DNA of 64,000 nt, taken from contig CAMVGU010000005.1 of assembly GCA_947167105.1 (NCBI GenBank), positions 1 through 64,000 on the forward strand, in the 5' to 3' direction. This document shows positions 12,391 through 44,499 of this stretch, piece by piece. Below the pieces are notes generated by a model. That model had not been told where the DNA came from and searched no databases. It worked only from the letters and a program-made list of their open reading frames with translations. The first letter of the stretch is position 1, and each line of letters begins with the position of its first letter. The position numbers were made by a program, and so were the translations under genes. Source of the stretch: an uncultured Selenomonas sp. Lineage in GTDB: Bacteria; Bacillota; Negativicutes; Selenomonadales; Selenomonadaceae.

Positions 12391-12924
12391 ATGGCAGAAG
12401 AGCTCAAGCAAAACGAGGAAGTAACCAGAAAACTGGCTGCCTCCATCGAGGAGATTGCAACATCTACCCAGACGGTCTATGAGGCTGTGGAGCAGGTGGC
12501 GAAAAGCGCCAGTGCCCTGGCCAAGGCCGGCCAGGAGTCTGTGGAGCAGGCGAAGTTCCTGCAGGAGAAGAATGCCGATACCATCAAGGTTATCGACTTC
12601 ATTACGAATATCGCTGGCCAGACCAATCTCCTGGGCCTGAACGCTGCCATTGAGGCTGCCCGCGCCGGTGAGCAGGGCCGCGGCTTTGCCGTCGTTGCGG
12701 AGGAAGTCCGCAAGCTGGCTGAACAGTCCCGCGAAGCTACCGAGAAGATCCAGTCCACCCTGACTGAGATGAATAAGGCCGTTGAAGGCATCTCCAAGTC
12801 CATTGAGACCACCGGCTCCATCAGTGAGGAGCAGGCTGCTTCCACCGAGGAAATCACTGCGAACCTCTCCCGCGTGACCAAGGCGGCAGAGGAACTCAAG
12901 CGCTATGTGGAGAGCCTGAACTAA
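12391..12924 (+). CDS. receptor-less methyl-accepting chemotaxis signalling domain protein
   Basis: A 177-residue protein that consists only of the cytoplasmic signalling bundle of a chemoreceptor. The hairpin tip that binds CheA and CheW is intact: [24 protein letters not shown] then [17 protein letters not shown], flanked by coiled-coil heptads including [10 protein letters not shown] and a methylation-like [10 protein letters not shown] segment. There is no transmembrane segment, HAMP or sensor domain. It might modulate another receptor array or sense through a partner. It is flanked by a repeat and a terminator, so it is a single-gene unit. Confidence 0.9.
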
Positions 12925-22833: not shown

Positions 22834-22999
22834 GATTCATGCGCTTAAGTTAATGACATAGAATAAGGCATAGATTTGATATTTGTGGCGGACAGCTAAA
22901 GAGTATGGCGCGGGCGGCAGGATTTCGGACAGAAAATGCCGAATGTAAAACAAAATAAATATCATTTAAGAGAAACAAATGCAGCGGAGGTGCATATCC

Positions 23000-24820
23000 A
23001 TGCAGCAGGAAAGTGGCCTTATCTATACCGACGATAACTGTGTCGGCTGCAGCAAGTGCATAAGGGCCTGCATAGCACCGGGCGCCAGTGTCTCCAGGGC
23101 CTTGGGGGGACAGATCAGGACTTATGTGGACGGTGTGAAGTGCATAAGCTGCGGTGCGTGCCTGAGTGCGTGCCAGCACGGCGCGAGGCAGTATGTGGAT
23201 GATACAGATGCCTTCCTGGCTGCCCTGGAGGGGGGAGAGGCCATAACCCTCCTGGTTGCTCCTTCCTTCCGCGCAAATTACCCGACAGAGTATGCCCGGG
23301 TTCTCACGCTGCTGAAAGGCCTGGGCCTGCGCCTTATTCTGCCTGTTTCCTTTGGTGCGGATATCTGCACCTGGGCCTATATCCGGCAGATGCAGGCCGG
23401 GGAGAAGCAAAACTTCATCTCCACCACCTGCCCGGTTATTGTGAACTATGTGGAATACTATCTCCCGGAGCTGGTTTCGCACCTGATGCCGGTGAAAAGT
23501 CCCCTGATGTGCCTGGCCACGTACTGCCGCAAAGAGCTGGGCCTGACGGAGGATTTCGCCTTTCTGGGGCCTTGCATCGGGAAAAAGACAGAGATGAGCC
23601 GCAGCGGGAATGAAGGGCTTGTCCGGTATAACGTCACTTTCGCCCATTTGCTGGAAAGGCTGCGCGCTCATCCGGGACTGCCCGCTGCGGCCCTGCCCGA
23701 TGAGGAACTCTTTGGGAGCATTCCCGCCCCACGGGGCACTGACACCGTGCCGGGGCTGGGGAGTTTTTACCCTGCGCCGGGGGGGCTGGGGGAAAATCTT
23801 CGCTGGTTCCTGGGTGACGAGTGGCCTGTGCGCCAGGTGGAAGGAGTGGCCGCCAGTTGCAGATGGCTGAGGCGCAATGCAGGGAAAATCGCCTCGAACC
23901 AGGAAGGCTTTGCCTTGATAGATATACTGAACTGCGAAATGGGCTGCCTGGAAGGCCCGGCGGCAGAAAAAAATAATTTTGATGTGGATGAAAGCCTGAT
24001 ACGCCTCATGGAGATCAGGAACGGGGCTAAACTTGCCTCTAAGCAGAGTGCCTGGGGTAAAGATTTGACACCTGCCCAGCGCCTGGAGCGGCTGGAGGCT
24101 CAGTTTGCCCACCTTGACCCCAGCGACTACGCTCACCAGTACATGAACCGCTCGACCCGGCGCAAGCTTCGTATCCCAGGGGAGGAGGAGCTGAACCGTA
24201 TCTTCAATGAAATGTACAAGACCAGCAAGGCGTCCCGGAACATCAACTGCGCCTTCTGCGGCTACGAATCCTGCCGGGAGATGGCAGTGAGTATTGCCAA
24301 CGGCTTTAACGACAAGCGGAGCTGCATCCACTACCTGAAAGATGAGGCAGTGCGGATTGAGCGCATGAGCTTCCGCGACAGCCTTACAGGCGTGATGAAC
24401 CGCAACGCCTATGAAGAAATGATGGAGCAAAAAATCATTCCCCGGCCCTCGGTGGGGCTTATAGTCTGCGACCTTAACGGGCTGAAGGCTGTCAATGACA
24501 ATGAGGGCCATGCCGCCGGCGACCGCCTCATCATTGCCGGGGCACGCTGCCTCTCAGATATTTTCGGCGTAAGCAATGTCTACCGCATCGGCGGCGACGA
24601 ATTCCTGGTGCTGGTGCAGGATGCCGGGGAGGAGGAAATTCTGGAGGCAATGGACAGACTGCATGCCCTGATGGCGGAGCGTGCCGTCAGCATGGCAACA
24701 GGCTTTGCCATAGGAACCCCCGGCCAGTCCATAGATGGGCTGATGAAGGTGGCGGATGCCATGATGTACGAGGACAAGCTGGGATATTATGAGCGCACTG
24801 GGAAAAAACGCAGGGAATAA
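23000..24820 (+). CDS. [FeFe]-hydrogenase-like sensor fused to a diguanylate cyclase
   Basis: A 606-residue soluble protein. Residues 1-65 are a two-cluster ferredoxin domain (CVGCSKCIRAC and CISCGACLSAC). Residues about 70-370 are an H-cluster domain with all four cluster cysteines: STTCPVI (about 143), GPCIGKKTE (about 192), and NCEMGC (about 312 and 316). The catalytic hydrogenase Cys that precedes the L1 ligand is Thr here (TTCP instead of CCP), as in sensory HydS proteins. Next comes a CAFCGYESC Fe-S domain (about 416) and a GGDEF domain with intact GGDEF (about 530). No canonical RxxD inhibition site precedes it. I infer a H2- or redox-responsive c-di-GMP synthase. GGAGGTG precedes the ATG at 23000. 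Confidence 0.9.
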   Translation: MQQESGLIYTDDNCVGCSKCIRACIAPGASVSRALGGQIRTYVDGVKCISCGACLSACQHGARQYVDDTDAFLAALEGGEAITLLVAPSFRANYPTEYARVLTLLKGLGLRLILPVSFGADICTWAYIRQMQAGEKQNFISTTCPVIVNYVEYYLPELVSHLMPVKSPLMCLATYCRKELGLTEDFAFLGPCIGKKTEMSRSGNEGLVRYNVTFAHLLERLRAHPGLPAAALPDEELFGSIPAPRGTDTVPGLGSFYPAPGGLGENLRWFLGDEWPVRQVEGVAASCRWLRRNAGKIASNQEGFALIDILNCEMGCLEGPAAEKNNFDVDESLIRLMEIRNGAKLASKQSAWGKDLTPAQRLERLEAQFAHLDPSDYAHQYMNRSTRRKLRIPGEEELNRIFNEMYKTSKASRNINCAFCGYESCREMAVSIANGFNDKRSCIHYLKDEAVRIERMSFRDSLTGVMNRNAYEEMMEQKIIPRPSVGLIVCDLNGLKAVNDNEGHAAGDRLIIAGARCLSDIFGVSNVYRIGGDEFLVLVQDAGEEEILEAMDRLHALMAERAVSMATGFAIGTPGQSIDGLMKVADAMMYEDKLGYYERTGKKRRE

Positions 24821-28883: not shown

Positions 28884-28929
28884 AAGGGACTGCCGTCTGA
28901 AGATGAAAGCCTTCAGGCGGCAGTCCCTT
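28884..28929. terminator. strong bidirectional terminator
   Basis: A 19-bp stem AAGGGACTGCCGTCTGAAG paired with CTTCAGGCGGCAGTCCCTT (one G-U pair) around an 8-nt loop, between convergent genes. The minus-strand gene's stop codon lies at its edge. Confidence 0.8.
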
Positions 28930-30610
28930 ACTCTGTCACTACCTTGTTGCGGCCGGTTCCCTTGGCCTGGTACAGGGCGTGGTCCGCCCGTTTTTGGAAG
29001 GCGGCCAGGCTGTCCTCCAGGCCGTGCCAGATGCTGATGCCTATGCTGCAGGTAATCTGTCGTTCGGGCAACAGTACGGCCAGGCAGAGATCGGCCCGTA
29101 TGGCATCGGCGAACTCTGCGGCCTCTGCCAGGGTGAAGCCCCGGCAGGTGACCATGAATTCCTCGCCGCCGTAGCGGATGAAGGTGTGCCGTGCGTCCAG
29201 ATGCCTGCGCACCAGGCCGGCAAAGCCTGTAAGCACCTGATCTCCGGCATCATGGCCGAAGGTATCGTTGATGCTCTTGAAATGATCCAGGTCAAACATC
29301 AGCAGGGCCAGGGGGGCACCTGTGGCGTTGGCAATTTCTGTTTCGTGTATCAGTGCGTCCTGAAGCTGCCCCCGGTTATAGCACTTGGTCAGGGCATCAA
29401 TCTGGGCAGATTCCCTGGCGGCGGCTACGCTGCGTTCCAGTGATGAGTTGATGATCCGCAGCCGCTGCCGCTCATTCAGGGCATGGCGCAGCAGCCAGAG
29501 GACGATAAGGGTCCACAGGCAGATAATCAGCGGCAGAATATGGACCCGTGCCAGGATTTCGGCGATTTGCAGCACCGGCAGCCCTGCGGCCGGCAGGATC
29601 AGGCTGCCGCAGATCTCGGAGCCGCTGCGGGACTCGATGTCCAGGCAAGCAGCTACGGCCAGGAGGGCAAACCAGCTGAAGAACAGATAGAATTCCAGCC
29701 AACTGTCCAGCAGGCGCTTGCCCATAAGCTCACCTACCAGTGCGGCCACCAGCACGCCGCTGCACAGGCAGGTGAGTATCAGCATCATGCGGGCGCGTTT
29801 GGGGGGCAGTGCTTCCTTAGCCGTGAGGATCAGCAGGATAGGCATCAGGTAGAAGGAAATCAGGCAGATTAAGTCACGGGTGGACATTTTGATGATGCCG
29901 GGTTCCTGGAAGGCGGCCACTCCTGTCACCAGCCAGGCGGAGAAGACCAGGAGGAACAGGGACAGGCGCAGGATAAAGCTGCGCTGCCTGGGCAGCAGTT
30001 GCCAGCAGGGCAGCAGGATCATAAGCAGCAGGGCGGACATGGGCAGCGCCAGCCATTTGAGCATATCATTCCGGAAGAGGCTGCCCACCTGCTGGTTGCT
30101 TTCGCCGATGCTGAGACCTTCTATCAGGCCCAGGCGGCGGGGGTGATCTGTGTAGAGATGAAAGGAGAGCTGCTTGCCCTGGTAATTGCGCGGCAGTTCC
30201 ACAAGATGCCATCTCAGGCCGTAGATATTCTGCTCCGAGCCGAAGGCACCGTAGCTGTAGATCAACTGGGCATTCATATAGACCCGGACAGCCTGTTCCA
30301 CAGTGGCAAAGGCAAGGGTAGGATGGTGGTAGGTGCTGTCTGTCGGCAAAATGGTGGTCAGCCAGAGGGTTGTCCTGCCTTCCGGTATGGGCAGGGAATA
30401 GGGGCGGGGGGCAGGAAGCCACTCCGGGTCATCGTAGGGCTTGACCGGGGTGATGAAAACGGGGCCGGCAATGGGGCGGCCGCTAACCTGCGGCAGTATG
30501 TACTTCCAGCCGCCGGACAGCGGCTCGGCGGCGCAGCAGGCCATGGGGCAGAGAAGCCCCTGCAAAAGCAGCAGGAGCAGGCAGAAAGCTGCCGCAAGAT
30601 TCCTTAGCAA
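28928..30610 (-). CDS. membrane diguanylate cyclase, 7TMR-DISM-like
   Basis: A 560-residue sensor. It has a signal peptide, an extracytoplasmic domain (about 28-190; a jelly-roll-like DISM extracellular region containing RTTLWLTTILP and LRWHLVELPRNYQGK), seven hydrophobic segments (about 195-375), a short coiled coil, and a GGDEF domain with active-site RYGGEEFMV (about 505) and LALLMFDLDHFKSINDTFGHDAGD. The residues at the usual I-site are DARH rather than RxxD, so product inhibition may be absent. The start is TTG at 30610 with AAAGGAGG 8 nt upstream. The gene lies 48 nt after the solute-binding protein gene, which may give it its ligand. Confidence 0.9.
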   Translation of the reverse strand: MLRNLAAAFCLLLLLLQGLLCPMACCAAEPLSGGWKYILPQVSGRPIAGPVFITPVKPYDDPEWLPAPRPYSLPIPEGRTTLWLTTILPTDSTYHHPTLAFATVEQAVRVYMNAQLIYSYGAFGSEQNIYGLRWHLVELPRNYQGKQLSFHLYTDHPRRLGLIEGLSIGESNQQVGSLFRNDMLKWLALPMSALLLMILLPCWQLLPRQRSFILRLSLFLLVFSAWLVTGVAAFQEPGIIKMSTRDLICLISFYLMPILLILTAKEALPPKRARMMLILTCLCSGVLVAALVGELMGKRLLDSWLEFYLFFSWFALLAVAACLDIESRSGSEICGSLILPAAGLPVLQIAEILARVHILPLIICLWTLIVLWLLRHALNERQRLRIINSSLERSVAAARESAQIDALTKCYNRGQLQDALIHETEIANATGAPLALLMFDLDHFKSINDTFGHDAGDQVLTGFAGLVRRHLDARHTFIRYGGEEFMVTCRGFTLAEAAEFADAIRADLCLAVLLPERQITCSIGISIWHGLEDSLAAFQKRADHALYQAKGTGRNKVVTE

Positions 30611-41719: not shown

Positions 41720-42670
41720 GTGGACTACAGGAAGCTCGCTTTGGCAGTTGCCTTGGCGCTCATCTGCGTAGTGGGCGCACTGATATATGTGCGGGACAAT
41801 TTGATTGAGAAGACGGAGTTCATACCGGATATCACAGACCTTACCAAGAATTACCTGGCCGAGGAGGAAATCAAGGCCGCCCTGGAAAGGCGGGGAGAGG
41901 CAGATATACAGCCTGCGGAGGTCATCACCACCCTGCAGGACGGCGCTCCGAGATTAGCCCTGGTTTTTGACGGCATGCCCGACAGGCCCCTGGCGGCCAA
42001 ACTGCTGGATGTGCTGGCCAGGCACAAGACTCCTGCGGTATTTTTCCTGGAGGGGGAGAATGTGGTAGACGAGCCGGAGGTCATAAAGCTCATCCGTCAG
42101 GCAGGCCAGGAAGTGGGCAACTACACCTATGTGGGGCTGGCTGCCCTGGAAAAGCGACCCCCTGGGGAGCAGATCAGGGAAATCTGCCGGGGACAGAAGG
42201 CCGTGACCATGAATGACTCTCTGACACCCACCCTTTTTCGCGCTCCTCGCACGGTGTACACGGATGAGCTGCTCAAATCCGTCAGGGCCGCAGGGCTGGA
42301 GTACGCCGTCAAGGAAAATGTGCGCTTCCAGCCCGGCAGCCTGCACAGCCAGGAGGAGGCGGATGCCTTTGCGGCTGCGGTGGCAAATGGCAGCATCATC
42401 GCCATCCCCGTGGAGCCTCCCGTGGAGCAGAAGGCCGATGATCCGGCAGTGCATGAGGAAAAGCCTGCCGTGGATATGAAGCCCACCATTCAGGACGGGA
42501 CACCTAATCCCCCCATTGCCAAAGTGGAGTTGGACAAGGAACTGGATCTGCTGCTGACAGCGATGGAGAAGCAGGGCAAGGAATTCATCTATGTGAACCA
42601 GTTCAGGAAGATTCACTATATCCCTGCCGGTTTGCCCTTGCCGGAAAGCACGGAAGGAGGCCAGGAGTAA
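41720..42670 (+). CDS. membrane-anchored polysaccharide-deacetylase-like protein, catalytically degenerate
   Basis: A 316-residue protein with one N-terminal membrane helix (LALAVALALICVVGALIYV) and a divergent NodB/CE4 fold. Motif 1 is LALVFDGMP instead of TFDDGP, losing one Asp, and the HxxxH metal motif is replaced by GNYTYVGLA, so metal-dependent deacetylation is unlikely. FRAPRTVYTDELLKSV keeps the later RxP-type motif. It may bind polysaccharide or act as a scaffold beside the synthase. The start is GTG at 41720 with AGGAGG upstream. Its stop overlaps the start of the glycosyltransferase (TAATG). Confidence 0.8.
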   Translation: MDYRKLALAVALALICVVGALIYVRDNLIEKTEFIPDITDLTKNYLAEEEIKAALERRGEADIQPAEVITTLQDGAPRLALVFDGMPDRPLAAKLLDVLARHKTPAVFFLEGENVVDEPEVIKLIRQAGQEVGNYTYVGLAALEKRPPGEQIREICRGQKAVTMNDSLTPTLFRAPRTVYTDELLKSVRAAGLEYAVKENVRFQPGSLHSQEEADAFAAAVANGSIIAIPVEPPVEQKADDPAVHEEKPAVDMKPTIQDGTPNPPIAKVELDKELDLLLTAMEKQGKEFIYVNQFRKIHYIPAGLPLPESTEGGQE

Positions 42671-44499
42671 TGGGAGATAAGAAGGAAAGGCAGGAAGTCC
42701 TCTACGAAGAAAAGCCTGACCGCCGCCTGCTCTCCTATACGCCGGATGCCTCCGGGCACCGCAGCAACCATGACCGCCGGGGCGGCTGCGAGGATGAGGA
42801 TGATTACATAGCCTACCAGCGGGAGGACAAGGCAGGCCAGCGCTACCTGGTGGACTACGGGGTGGAAATGTCCTGTAAGGGCGGCAGCCTGCGGGCGGTG
42901 GCCATAGATATCAGCACCACCGGCATGCTGCTGAAATATGCTGCAGAAAAGCCTGGCCCCCAGGTGGGGGATAAGGTCAGGCTCACCTTTGAAATCACTC
43001 CCGGCTCCATGCCGGAAGGGTATGAGATGAAGGTCAAGAGGCTGAGGGCCAAATGTGTCAGGGTGCTGGAACGAAATGGAGAGCACCTCTGCGCAGTGGA
43101 ATTTACCGATACTTTGGCCCAGTATGCCACAGCCAAGCGCCAGAATTACATGCTGGCTGCCTCGGCTTTCTTCCTGGGCGTCATTGTGCTGGCCATTGTC
43201 ATGATGCGGGCGGAGTCCGTGGTGTACTTCCGCTTCAATCGCTGGCTGTACCTCTACAGCATCATTGCGGCCACCTTCCTCCTGTCCCGTTATTTCTTCG
43301 CCACCTTCTACAGGCCGGTGAAGATTGACCCGGACTATACACCGGGGGTGACACTCATCATCCCCTGCTTCAATGAGGAACACTGGATAGACCGCACCAT
43401 CAAGAGCTGCATCAATCAGGACTATCCCGCCGACAAGCTGGAAATCATTGTGGTGGATGACCATTCCAATGATAAATCCGTGGAGCGCATCAGGGAGACC
43501 ATCGAGGAACTGAAGGCGGCAGACACCCGGGAGGGGGGCTACCGGGTGGAGGGGCGCATCCGCTACATAGTGCAGCCCTACAACCAGGGAAAGCGGGAGG
43601 CCATGGCCCTGGGGGCCAGGGAGGCGCAGCATGAGCTGCTGATCTTCGTGGACTCGGACAGCTTCCTTGACCCCTTTGCGGTGCGCAACATCGTCCAGCC
43701 CTTCAAGGACAAGGACATGGGCGGTGTGTCGGGGCGCACGGATGTGGCCAATACCTACACCAACGCCCTGACCCGCATGCAGTCCGTGCGCTACTACATC
43801 GCCTTCCGCATCATGAAGGCGGCGGAAAGCTACTTCGATTCTGTGACCTGTCTTTCAGGCCCCCTGTCCTGCTATCGGCGGGACTTGGTGCTGCGCTACG
43901 CCGATGCCTGGCTGAACCAGAAGTTTTTGGGCCAGCGGGCTACCTTCGGCGATGACCGCAGCATGACCAATTTCATTCTCAGGCACAACCGCACCTGTTA
44001 TCAGGACAGCGCCGTGTGCATGACCATCGTGCCCAGCAGCTACGTCATGTTCTTAAAGCAGCAGATGCGCTGGAAGCGTTCCTGGCTGAGGGAGTCCCTG
44101 ATCGCTGCCCGCTATATCTGGAAAAAAGAACCCTTTATGTCCCTGAGTTTCTACATGGGACTGGTGGTGCCCATTGCGGCACCTGTCATCGTCCTCTATA
44201 ACCTTATCTATGTGCCCATCATGCACCGGGTTTTCCCCGTGACCTTTGTGGTAGGCATGCTGCTCATGGCCCTGCTTATGAGCATGGCCCAGATGTTCCT
44301 GCGGCGCAGCACCACCTGGATTTTCGGCATGTGGTTCTGCCTGTACTACGAAGCGGTGCTCCTGTGGCAGATGCCCGTGGCCTGGGTGACTTTCTGGAAA
44401 TCCACCTGGGGCACCAGGCTGACCCCTGCAGACCTGGCAGAAATGGAAAAGGAACGGCAGAAGCAGGAAAGGAAGGAAAAGAAACGGCATGAATCCTAG
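42670..44499 (+). CDS. PilZ-fused processive glycosyltransferase (GT2 synthase)
   Basis: A 609-residue membrane enzyme. Residues about 50-155 form a PilZ-like domain: RYLVDYGVEM then AIDISTTGMLL, with the DxSxxG c-di-GMP motif; HDRRGG upstream may give the arginines. Two membrane helices follow (about 158-210), then the GT2 domain with VVDDHSND (about 260), FVDSDSF (about 326), FGDDRSM (about 427) and the processivity motif QQMRW (463-467), then more membrane helices. This is the layout of cellulose, hyaluronan and alginate type synthases. It should polymerise and translocate a polysaccharide in response to c-di-GMP. It overlaps its neighbours on both sides. Confidence 0.9.
   Translation: MGDKKERQEVLYEEKPDRRLLSYTPDASGHRSNHDRRGGCEDEDDYIAYQREDKAGQRYLVDYGVEMSCKGGSLRAVAIDISTTGMLLKYAAEKPGPQVGDKVRLTFEITPGSMPEGYEMKVKRLRAKCVRVLERNGEHLCAVEFTDTLAQYATAKRQNYMLAASAFFLGVIVLAIVMMRAESVVYFRFNRWLYLYSIIAATFLLSRYFFATFYRPVKIDPDYTPGVTLIIPCFNEEHWIDRTIKSCINQDYPADKLEIIVVDDHSNDKSVERIRETIEELKAADTREGGYRVEGRIRYIVQPYNQGKREAMALGAREAQHELLIFVDSDSFLDPFAVRNIVQPFKDKDMGGVSGRTDVANTYTNALTRMQSVRYYIAFRIMKAAESYFDSVTCLSGPLSCYRRDLVLRYADAWLNQKFLGQRATFGDDRSMTNFILRHNRTCYQDSAVCMTIVPSSYVMFLKQQMRWKRSWLRESLIAARYIWKKEPFMSLSFYMGLVVPIAAPVIVLYNLIYVPIMHRVFPVTFVVGMLLMALLMSMAQMFLRRSTTWIFGMWFCLYYEAVLLWQMPVAWVTFWKSTWGTRLTPADLAEMEKERQKQERKEKKRHES

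Follow-up and report, generated by a model that had tools for sequence, protein, structure and literature searches.

A putative one-component sensor joining an H-cluster-type domain to a diguanylate cyclase domain in an uncultured Selenomonas sp.

A single gene of an uncultured Selenomonas sp. encodes a polypeptide in which ferredoxin-type motifs, an [FeFe]-hydrogenase H-domain, a further cysteine cluster motif and a GGDEF domain follow one another. Our preferred explanation, to which we assign a probability of about 0.5, is that this fusion protein is a soluble one-component sensor of the H-cluster type that sets c-di-GMP output. It would reside in the cytoplasm, and its H-domain would be of a sensory type, related to HydS yet distinct from it. 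The H-cluster-type centre of this domain would read H2, or how reduced the ferredoxin/H2 system of the cell is, with two N-terminal [4Fe-4S] clusters trading electrons with it; the change would be relayed first to the C-terminal [4Fe-4S] domain, then along a short helix of 17 residues to the GGDEF domain, which as a dimer would make c-di-GMP. The analysis establishes the domains, the cluster-ligand and cyclase residues, the family, the independent and repeated recruitment of outputs and the common linker phase; we infer the metal content, dimerisation, identity and direction of the signal and c-di-GMP output of the protein, with H2 as a candidate signal.

The longest frame of the gene (P0001) opens at ATG 22979 and extends to position 24820 on the plus strand of the window, the whole 64,000-nucleotide stretch of DNA that was analysed, with a product of 613 aa. 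The likelier start is the ATG at 23000, which has a GGAGG ribosome-binding site (22986-22990, plus strand) nine bases before it; the product would then have 606 aa. All features described here for the gene lie on the plus strand. An earlier note on this DNA, which took 23000 as the start, had described two ferredoxin clusters, an H-cluster domain with all four cysteines but Thr for the proton-transfer Cys, a further cluster domain and an intact GGDEF domain, and each of these elements was recovered. Two CxxCxxCxxxC motifs at residues 21-31 and 55-65 (23039-23173) predict two N-terminal [4Fe-4S] clusters, with a Pfam match to Fer4 (PF00037) of 21.7 bits against a cut-off of 21.1. The H-domain (PF02906, Fe_hyd_lg_C; residues 90-327; 23246-23959) is matched by Pfam at 90.7 bits against a cut-off of 22.1, which, with the four H-cluster cysteines, assigns the protein to the [FeFe]-hydrogenase H-domain superfamily. 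In CpI numbering, the L1 motif TTCP (residues 149-152; 23423-23434) retains C300 as Cys151 and has Thr150 at the place of the proton-transfer residue C299; the L2 motif GPCIGKKTE (residues 197-205; 23567-23593) retains C355 as Cys199, K358 as Lys202 and E361 as Glu205, with Gly replacing M353; and the L3 motif DILNCEMGCLEG (23921-23956), which includes CEMGC at residues 319-323, retains C499 and C503 as Cys319 and Cys323, with Leu replacing M497. The A-P-S pocket is intact, as are K358 and E361.

Following the H-domain, a Cx2Cx4Cx16C motif (residues 424-449; 24248-24325) resembles the FeS domain PF04060, whose Pfam match to residues 422-450 scores 22.9 bits, slightly below the cut-off of 23. 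The 17-residue linker from the last cluster cysteine to DSLTG (residues 467-471) spans 24326-24376 and is the presumed signalling helix. The GGDEF domain (PF00990; residues 465-600; 24371-24778) is matched by Pfam at 72.9 bits against a cut-off of 23.8 and keeps the GG[DE]EF, metal and substrate residues of a diguanylate cyclase, with the motifs DLNGLKAVND (24470-24499), GHAAGD (24506-24523) and GGDEF (residues 538-542; 24590-24604); this domain has no RxxD inhibitory site. Pfam identifies no PAS domain in P0001. The best NCBIfam matches are FeFe_hydrog_B1 and diguanylate cyclases, naming no specific family, and among the best 25 matches listed only the general GGDEF domain model exceeds its cut-off. 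A single-sequence AlphaFold2 model was unusable (mean pLDDT 37), and a promoter and terminator scan gave nothing beyond chance. Chance and an assembly chimera were both rejected as explanations, since other genomes encode proteins of this architecture that are 34-48% identical.

The protein belongs to a real family: among 189 genomes from its taxonomic family, 30 have a homolog, at 33 places (E <= 1e-30). C-termini were read at 30 of these places, leaving aside L056, G123:C263 and G123:C174, and comprise 21 GGDEF and nine MCP signalling domains. Relatives are also present in 173 of 398 genomes sampled from the phylum of Ruminococcaceae RUG12517 (E <= 1e-25); 30 returned loci and 20 further, hand-chosen ones were inspected, and family genome G151 is the same as G235 of this sample. 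The outputs of these relatives include MCP, histidine kinase, CheA-like HATPase, PAS with a sigma-54 activator, PAS alone, GGDEF-EAL and GGDEF-HD-GYP; output labels in the trees were given by pattern matching with a Pfam check on 17 representatives, and several were left as 'other'. Since the same module is joined to MCP, GGDEF, GGDEF-EAL, GGDEF-HD-GYP, histidine-kinase and PAS-sigma54 outputs, the sensor part reads as a signal-input module. The closest kin of the fusion protein carry predicted GGDEF, GGDEF-EAL or MCP outputs. No relatives were found on viral contigs, and a contig scan with the whole fusion protein gave matches confined to the GGDEF part.

Several relatives merit separate description. 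L185, L187 and L190, from Clostridia (RUG12517, RGIG3319, RUI288), are H-domain sensors with GGDEF-EAL and could possibly represent an opposing phosphodiesterase arm for c-di-GMP. The histidine kinases L198 and L199, from Deltaproteobacteria and Syntrophorhabdaceae bins, have lost the L2 lysine and have L3 shortened to FLFCHGC; their H-domains are probably without an H-cluster. Among the Ruminococcus loci, L184, L186, L193, L194 and others carry the same sensor followed by a helical-looking C-terminal tail that is ~140-160 residues long and lacks the MCP hairpin motif.

Trees of the sensor part, together with the motif residues, rule out membership of group A or B. The phylogeny of the hydrogenase part that the earlier note had proposed places it among signalling fusions, not with these catalytic groups. 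In a 104-row tree, groups A and B stand apart (support 97), as do group-D-like proteins (95); PAS, kinase, sigma-54 and GGDEF-HD-GYP proteins form one clade (95); and the fusion protein lies in a further clade of 62 rows, dominated by MCP fusions, with a support of 100 and a branch of 1.09. This tree was built from 118 rows cut by script and four by hand, with groups A and B thinned from 37 to 19 and near-duplicates and fragments already removed (among them L035, L043, L046, L055, L056, L057, L135 and L211). A 100-row tree, which omits seven rows that were long or uncertain (L195, L196, L198, L199, L213, L214, L180) and adds three, places R. albus HydS (RaHydS, L260) in the PAS clade, apart from the clade of the fusion protein, with SH-aLRT values of 98 for the former and 100 for the latter; L260 was taken as RaHydS because of its plasmid record and the SpoIIE phosphatase encoded next to it. 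In this tree the join of the fusion protein to L031 links two long branches. Both trees are quick ones, with no support measure other than SH-aLRT. On this basis the fusion protein is placed in a distinct putative sensor clade, apart from groups A and B, RaHydS and the group-D-like enzymes.

The active-site residues of this clade suggest a sensory rather than a catalytic role. Each of the four H-cluster cysteines is retained throughout the 62 rows, and K358 in 56 of them. The C299 position is mostly Pro, with Thr in the fusion protein and L031 and Arg in the proteins of genus g23; Ser or Gly stands in place of M353 in every one of the 62 rows, and Leu in place of M497 in 59. Sensory enzymes are described in PMC10055695 and PMC8163306 as having lost C299, M353 and M497. 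The glutamate of group D corresponds to E252 of TamHydS in the available text of PMC10407848; at the CpI V423 position, to which it aligns, Leu is found in 44 of 45 clade rows, including by alignment the fusion protein, and Glu in both group-D-like rows. Neither of the described first proton relays thus appears to be present in the clade, a lack more in keeping with a sensor than with a catalyst, and these replacements support the assignment of a sensory-type H-domain.

A careful tree of a hand-picked subset of 48 rows places GGDEF fusions at two points. At one, the fusion protein groups with the G137 protein and those of g23, next to the GGDEF-EAL protein L190; at the other, nine proteins are sister to seven MCP proteins. 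One ancient GGDEF fusion is ruled out, as no single origin is recovered among 200 bootstrap trees and a joint GGDEF clade is rejected by the AU test (p 3e-88); GGDEF was therefore fused at least twice within the sensor clade. The linker between the last cluster cysteine and the GGDEF start has 17 residues in all eight type-1 proteins, the type of the fusion protein (four measured by script, four by eye), 10 in 13 of 13 type-2 proteins and 31 in both GGDEF-HD-GYP proteins. These lengths are all 3 modulo 7, though the three fusions lie apart on the trees; the chance of three equal phases is ~1 in 49, for a pattern noticed after looking. The common phase would fit coiled-coil coupling, as supportive though not strong evidence. 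The EAL-type linkers, of 13 and 15 residues, fall off this rule, and the GGDEF domains of those proteins are degenerate. The RxxD product-inhibition site is found in 0 of four script-matched type-1 proteins and 7 of 13 type-2 proteins, a split that is expected if the two types of cyclase were separately recruited.

Among described systems, [FeFe] hydrogenases have been named 'sensory' on the strength of PAS domains and gene neighbours. The available part of HydDB lists [FeFe] classes C1 (kinase-linked), C2 (chemotactic, putative) and C3 (phosphatase-linked), and no cyclase-linked [FeFe] class; its [NiFe] group 2c, putatively diguanylate cyclase-linked, also has a proposed link from H2 to c-di-GMP, but the enzyme is unrelated to the fusion protein. 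Class C2 couples a sensor H-domain to MCP, the commonest architecture in the clade of the fusion protein and a likeness by architecture only; its output is MCP rather than GGDEF, although the near kin L038, L204 and L205 also carry MCP. The earlier note had set the protein beside sensory HydS-type hydrogenases, known to be linked with kinases and phosphatases. The likeness holds in that, like the group C enzymes of Thermotoga maritima (TmHydS) and Ruminococcus albus (RaHydS), the fusion protein has two N-terminal clusters, an H-domain with C299, M353 and M497 replaced, and the C-terminal four-cysteine cluster (Cx2Cx4Cx16C in HydS, in the available text of PMC8163306); a HydS of the PAS kind is rejected, as the fusion protein lacks PAS, has its output fused directly and stands in another clade than RaHydS. 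The group D, M2e enzyme TamHydS shares the loss of C299, the C-terminal cluster and Leu at M497 (PMC8163306, available text), but M2e has no output domain, and L197 and L200, called group D by their features, form a separate branch with Glu where the fusion protein has Leu. The GGDEF-EAL and GGDEF-HD-GYP proteins L187, L190 and L227 have the same kind of N-terminal module (sensor parts of L190 and L187 at 45-48% identity) but differ in carrying EAL or HD-GYP and may therefore degrade c-di-GMP; L227 lies in the PAS/kinase clade. No description of an [FeFe] H-cluster-GGDEF fusion was found in the available text of the open-licence literature, and that of Morra 2022 (PMC8924675) does not mention GGDEF. 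Sensory [FeFe] proteins are known; what we rate as new is that a cyclase is fused directly to one and that such fusions arose repeatedly.

The H-cluster normally needs the set HydE, HydF and HydG, which the earlier note had named as a check and which seems incomplete in the source genome: HydE was identified at 548 bits and HydF at 522 bits, whereas HydG was not detected in this 99.71% complete genome of 66 contigs, where its model returns only the HydE gene, at 59.8 bits. Among the 189 family genomes, 62 have a HydG match above the cut-off, namely 20 of the 30 homolog-bearing genomes against 42 of 159 others (Fisher p 3.7e-5, relatedness uncorrected). Among 33 chosen genomes, the 30 with a homolog plus G002, G004 and G005, 31 have HydE, 32 HydF and 22 HydG, and ten of the 11 without HydG have both HydE and HydF. 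Those without HydG include the source genome, G002 of the same genus and all six genomes of g23, the genus of the next-closest GGDEF relatives (43-45% identity). HydG is probably truly absent; in such genomes it may either be replaced by something else or leave enzymes without the usual cofactor. Each g23 genome has two further strong PF02906 proteins, and group A motifs are complete in all 11 of the 12 that were read, so that absence of HydG need not mean absence of the H-cluster. A ThiH-like gene of g23 was considered as a hidden HydG and ruled out at 28-29% identity to HydG; the gene before it looks by eye like thiG, and the two complete copies of the ThiH-like gene end without the C-terminal cysteines of HydG. 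[FeFe] hydrogenase genes occur in the HydG-less source genome (G000; contigs C15, C25, C23, C20), and the loci listed for HydG-less genomes are L113, L117, L119-L121, L123, L126-L129 and L131. In G027, hydE-hydG-hydF begins 8 bp after an MCP relative from the same subclade, in the same orientation (L138:5766-11359); the hydS frame of this relative seemingly lacks the first ferredoxin motif, perhaps through a frameshift. This gene string and the enrichment of HydG in homolog-bearing genomes speak for our preferred explanation.

The absence of HydG from the source genome and from all of g23 makes a sensor of redox or O2 with [4Fe-4S] clusters only a serious rival, tentative but quite possible. 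The H-cluster cysteines would then hold a plain [4Fe-4S] cluster with no [2Fe] subsite, as in Nar1-type proteins, and its redox state or integrity would control the cyclase. Retention of the protein in the HydG-less genomes, the loss of K358 in three of the six g23 fusion proteins with Arg at the C299 place, and the lack of a known proton relay are in line with this, against which stand the intact K358, E361 and A-P-S pocket of the fusion protein, the prevalence of K358 in the clade, HydE and HydF in the genome, the gene string with hydEGF in G027 and the complete group A hydrogenases of g23. That HydG lies in an assembly gap, so that the protein is simply an H2 sensor carrying a complete H-cluster, is a special case of our preferred explanation and quite unlikely. 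Assembly into 66 contigs would allow it, with HydG split between contigs in G011, G123 and G185, and HydG may stand alone, as in G137; completeness of the genome and the lack of HydG from G002 and g23 argue otherwise, as does the HydF gene of the source genome, which most resembles (68%) the one in G187, a genome without HydG, and has a neighbour in common with G187 and with HydG-less G170, not with the HydF-HydG pair of G001, G003 and G005. HydF synteny within the genus is uninformative because the HydF of the source genome stands elsewhere.

Some GGDEF domains are receptors, and the GGDEF domain might on that ground not be the output at all, the protein being a slow hydrogenase or electron-transfer protein tuned by binding of GTP or c-di-GMP. 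We consider this very unlikely given the intact metal, guanine-binding and GGDEF residues without RxxD in the type-1 proteins examined, the absence of known proton relays and the kinase, MCP and sigma-54 activator outputs of its kin. An unlikely extension of the one-component H-cluster-type sensor is that it forms an H2-to-c-di-GMP switch in hosts that build the H-cluster with HydE and HydF but not HydG, from a novel source of CO and CN, its sensor being a plug-in input that Bacillota joined repeatedly to every major output type.

H2 is a main currency between fermenters and H2 consumers. If the protein reads H2 or an H2-linked redox state and writes c-di-GMP, attachment and polysaccharide would through it be linked to the balance of fermentation. 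As input and a measurable enzymatic output lie in one polypeptide, a response to H2 could be assayed directly as c-di-GMP made, and the signalling step of sensory [FeFe] hydrogenases becomes testable with this protein.

The source genome has three PF02906 proteins, namely the fusion protein, HydA (C23), which adjoins a HydB-like gene, and a group-B-like protein (C20); these other two, HydE and HydF are all on other contigs, and by eye no other hydrogenase or maturase gene was seen in the 64-kb window. HydA (L001, G000:C23) has the motif TSCSPGW, with Ser at the CpI cluster-ligand position C300; the same Ser occurs in 5 of 12 group A rows, from genomes with and without HydG. There are 20 GGDEF matches in the genome, and a second GGDEF protein with a hydrophobic N-terminus is encoded ~4 kb from the fusion gene (28928-30610, minus strand). 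The PilZ synthase that the earlier note had pointed to 18 kb away is indeed there, as a PilZ-glycosyltransferase family 2 protein and candidate c-di-GMP receptor (42670-44499, plus strand) that lies, with a polysaccharide deacetylase, 17-18 kb from the fusion gene; at 18 kb and in another gene cluster, it is no evidence of coupling. Upstream of the fusion gene, the minus strand carries two gene pairs, one type III restriction-modification-like and the other toxin-antitoxin-like (named by eye), and downstream the plus strand carries NUDIX, MatE and ATP-grasp genes. A short free-standing MCP signalling domain without a sensor part (PF00015, 111.8 bits) is encoded at 12391-12924 of the window, on the plus strand.
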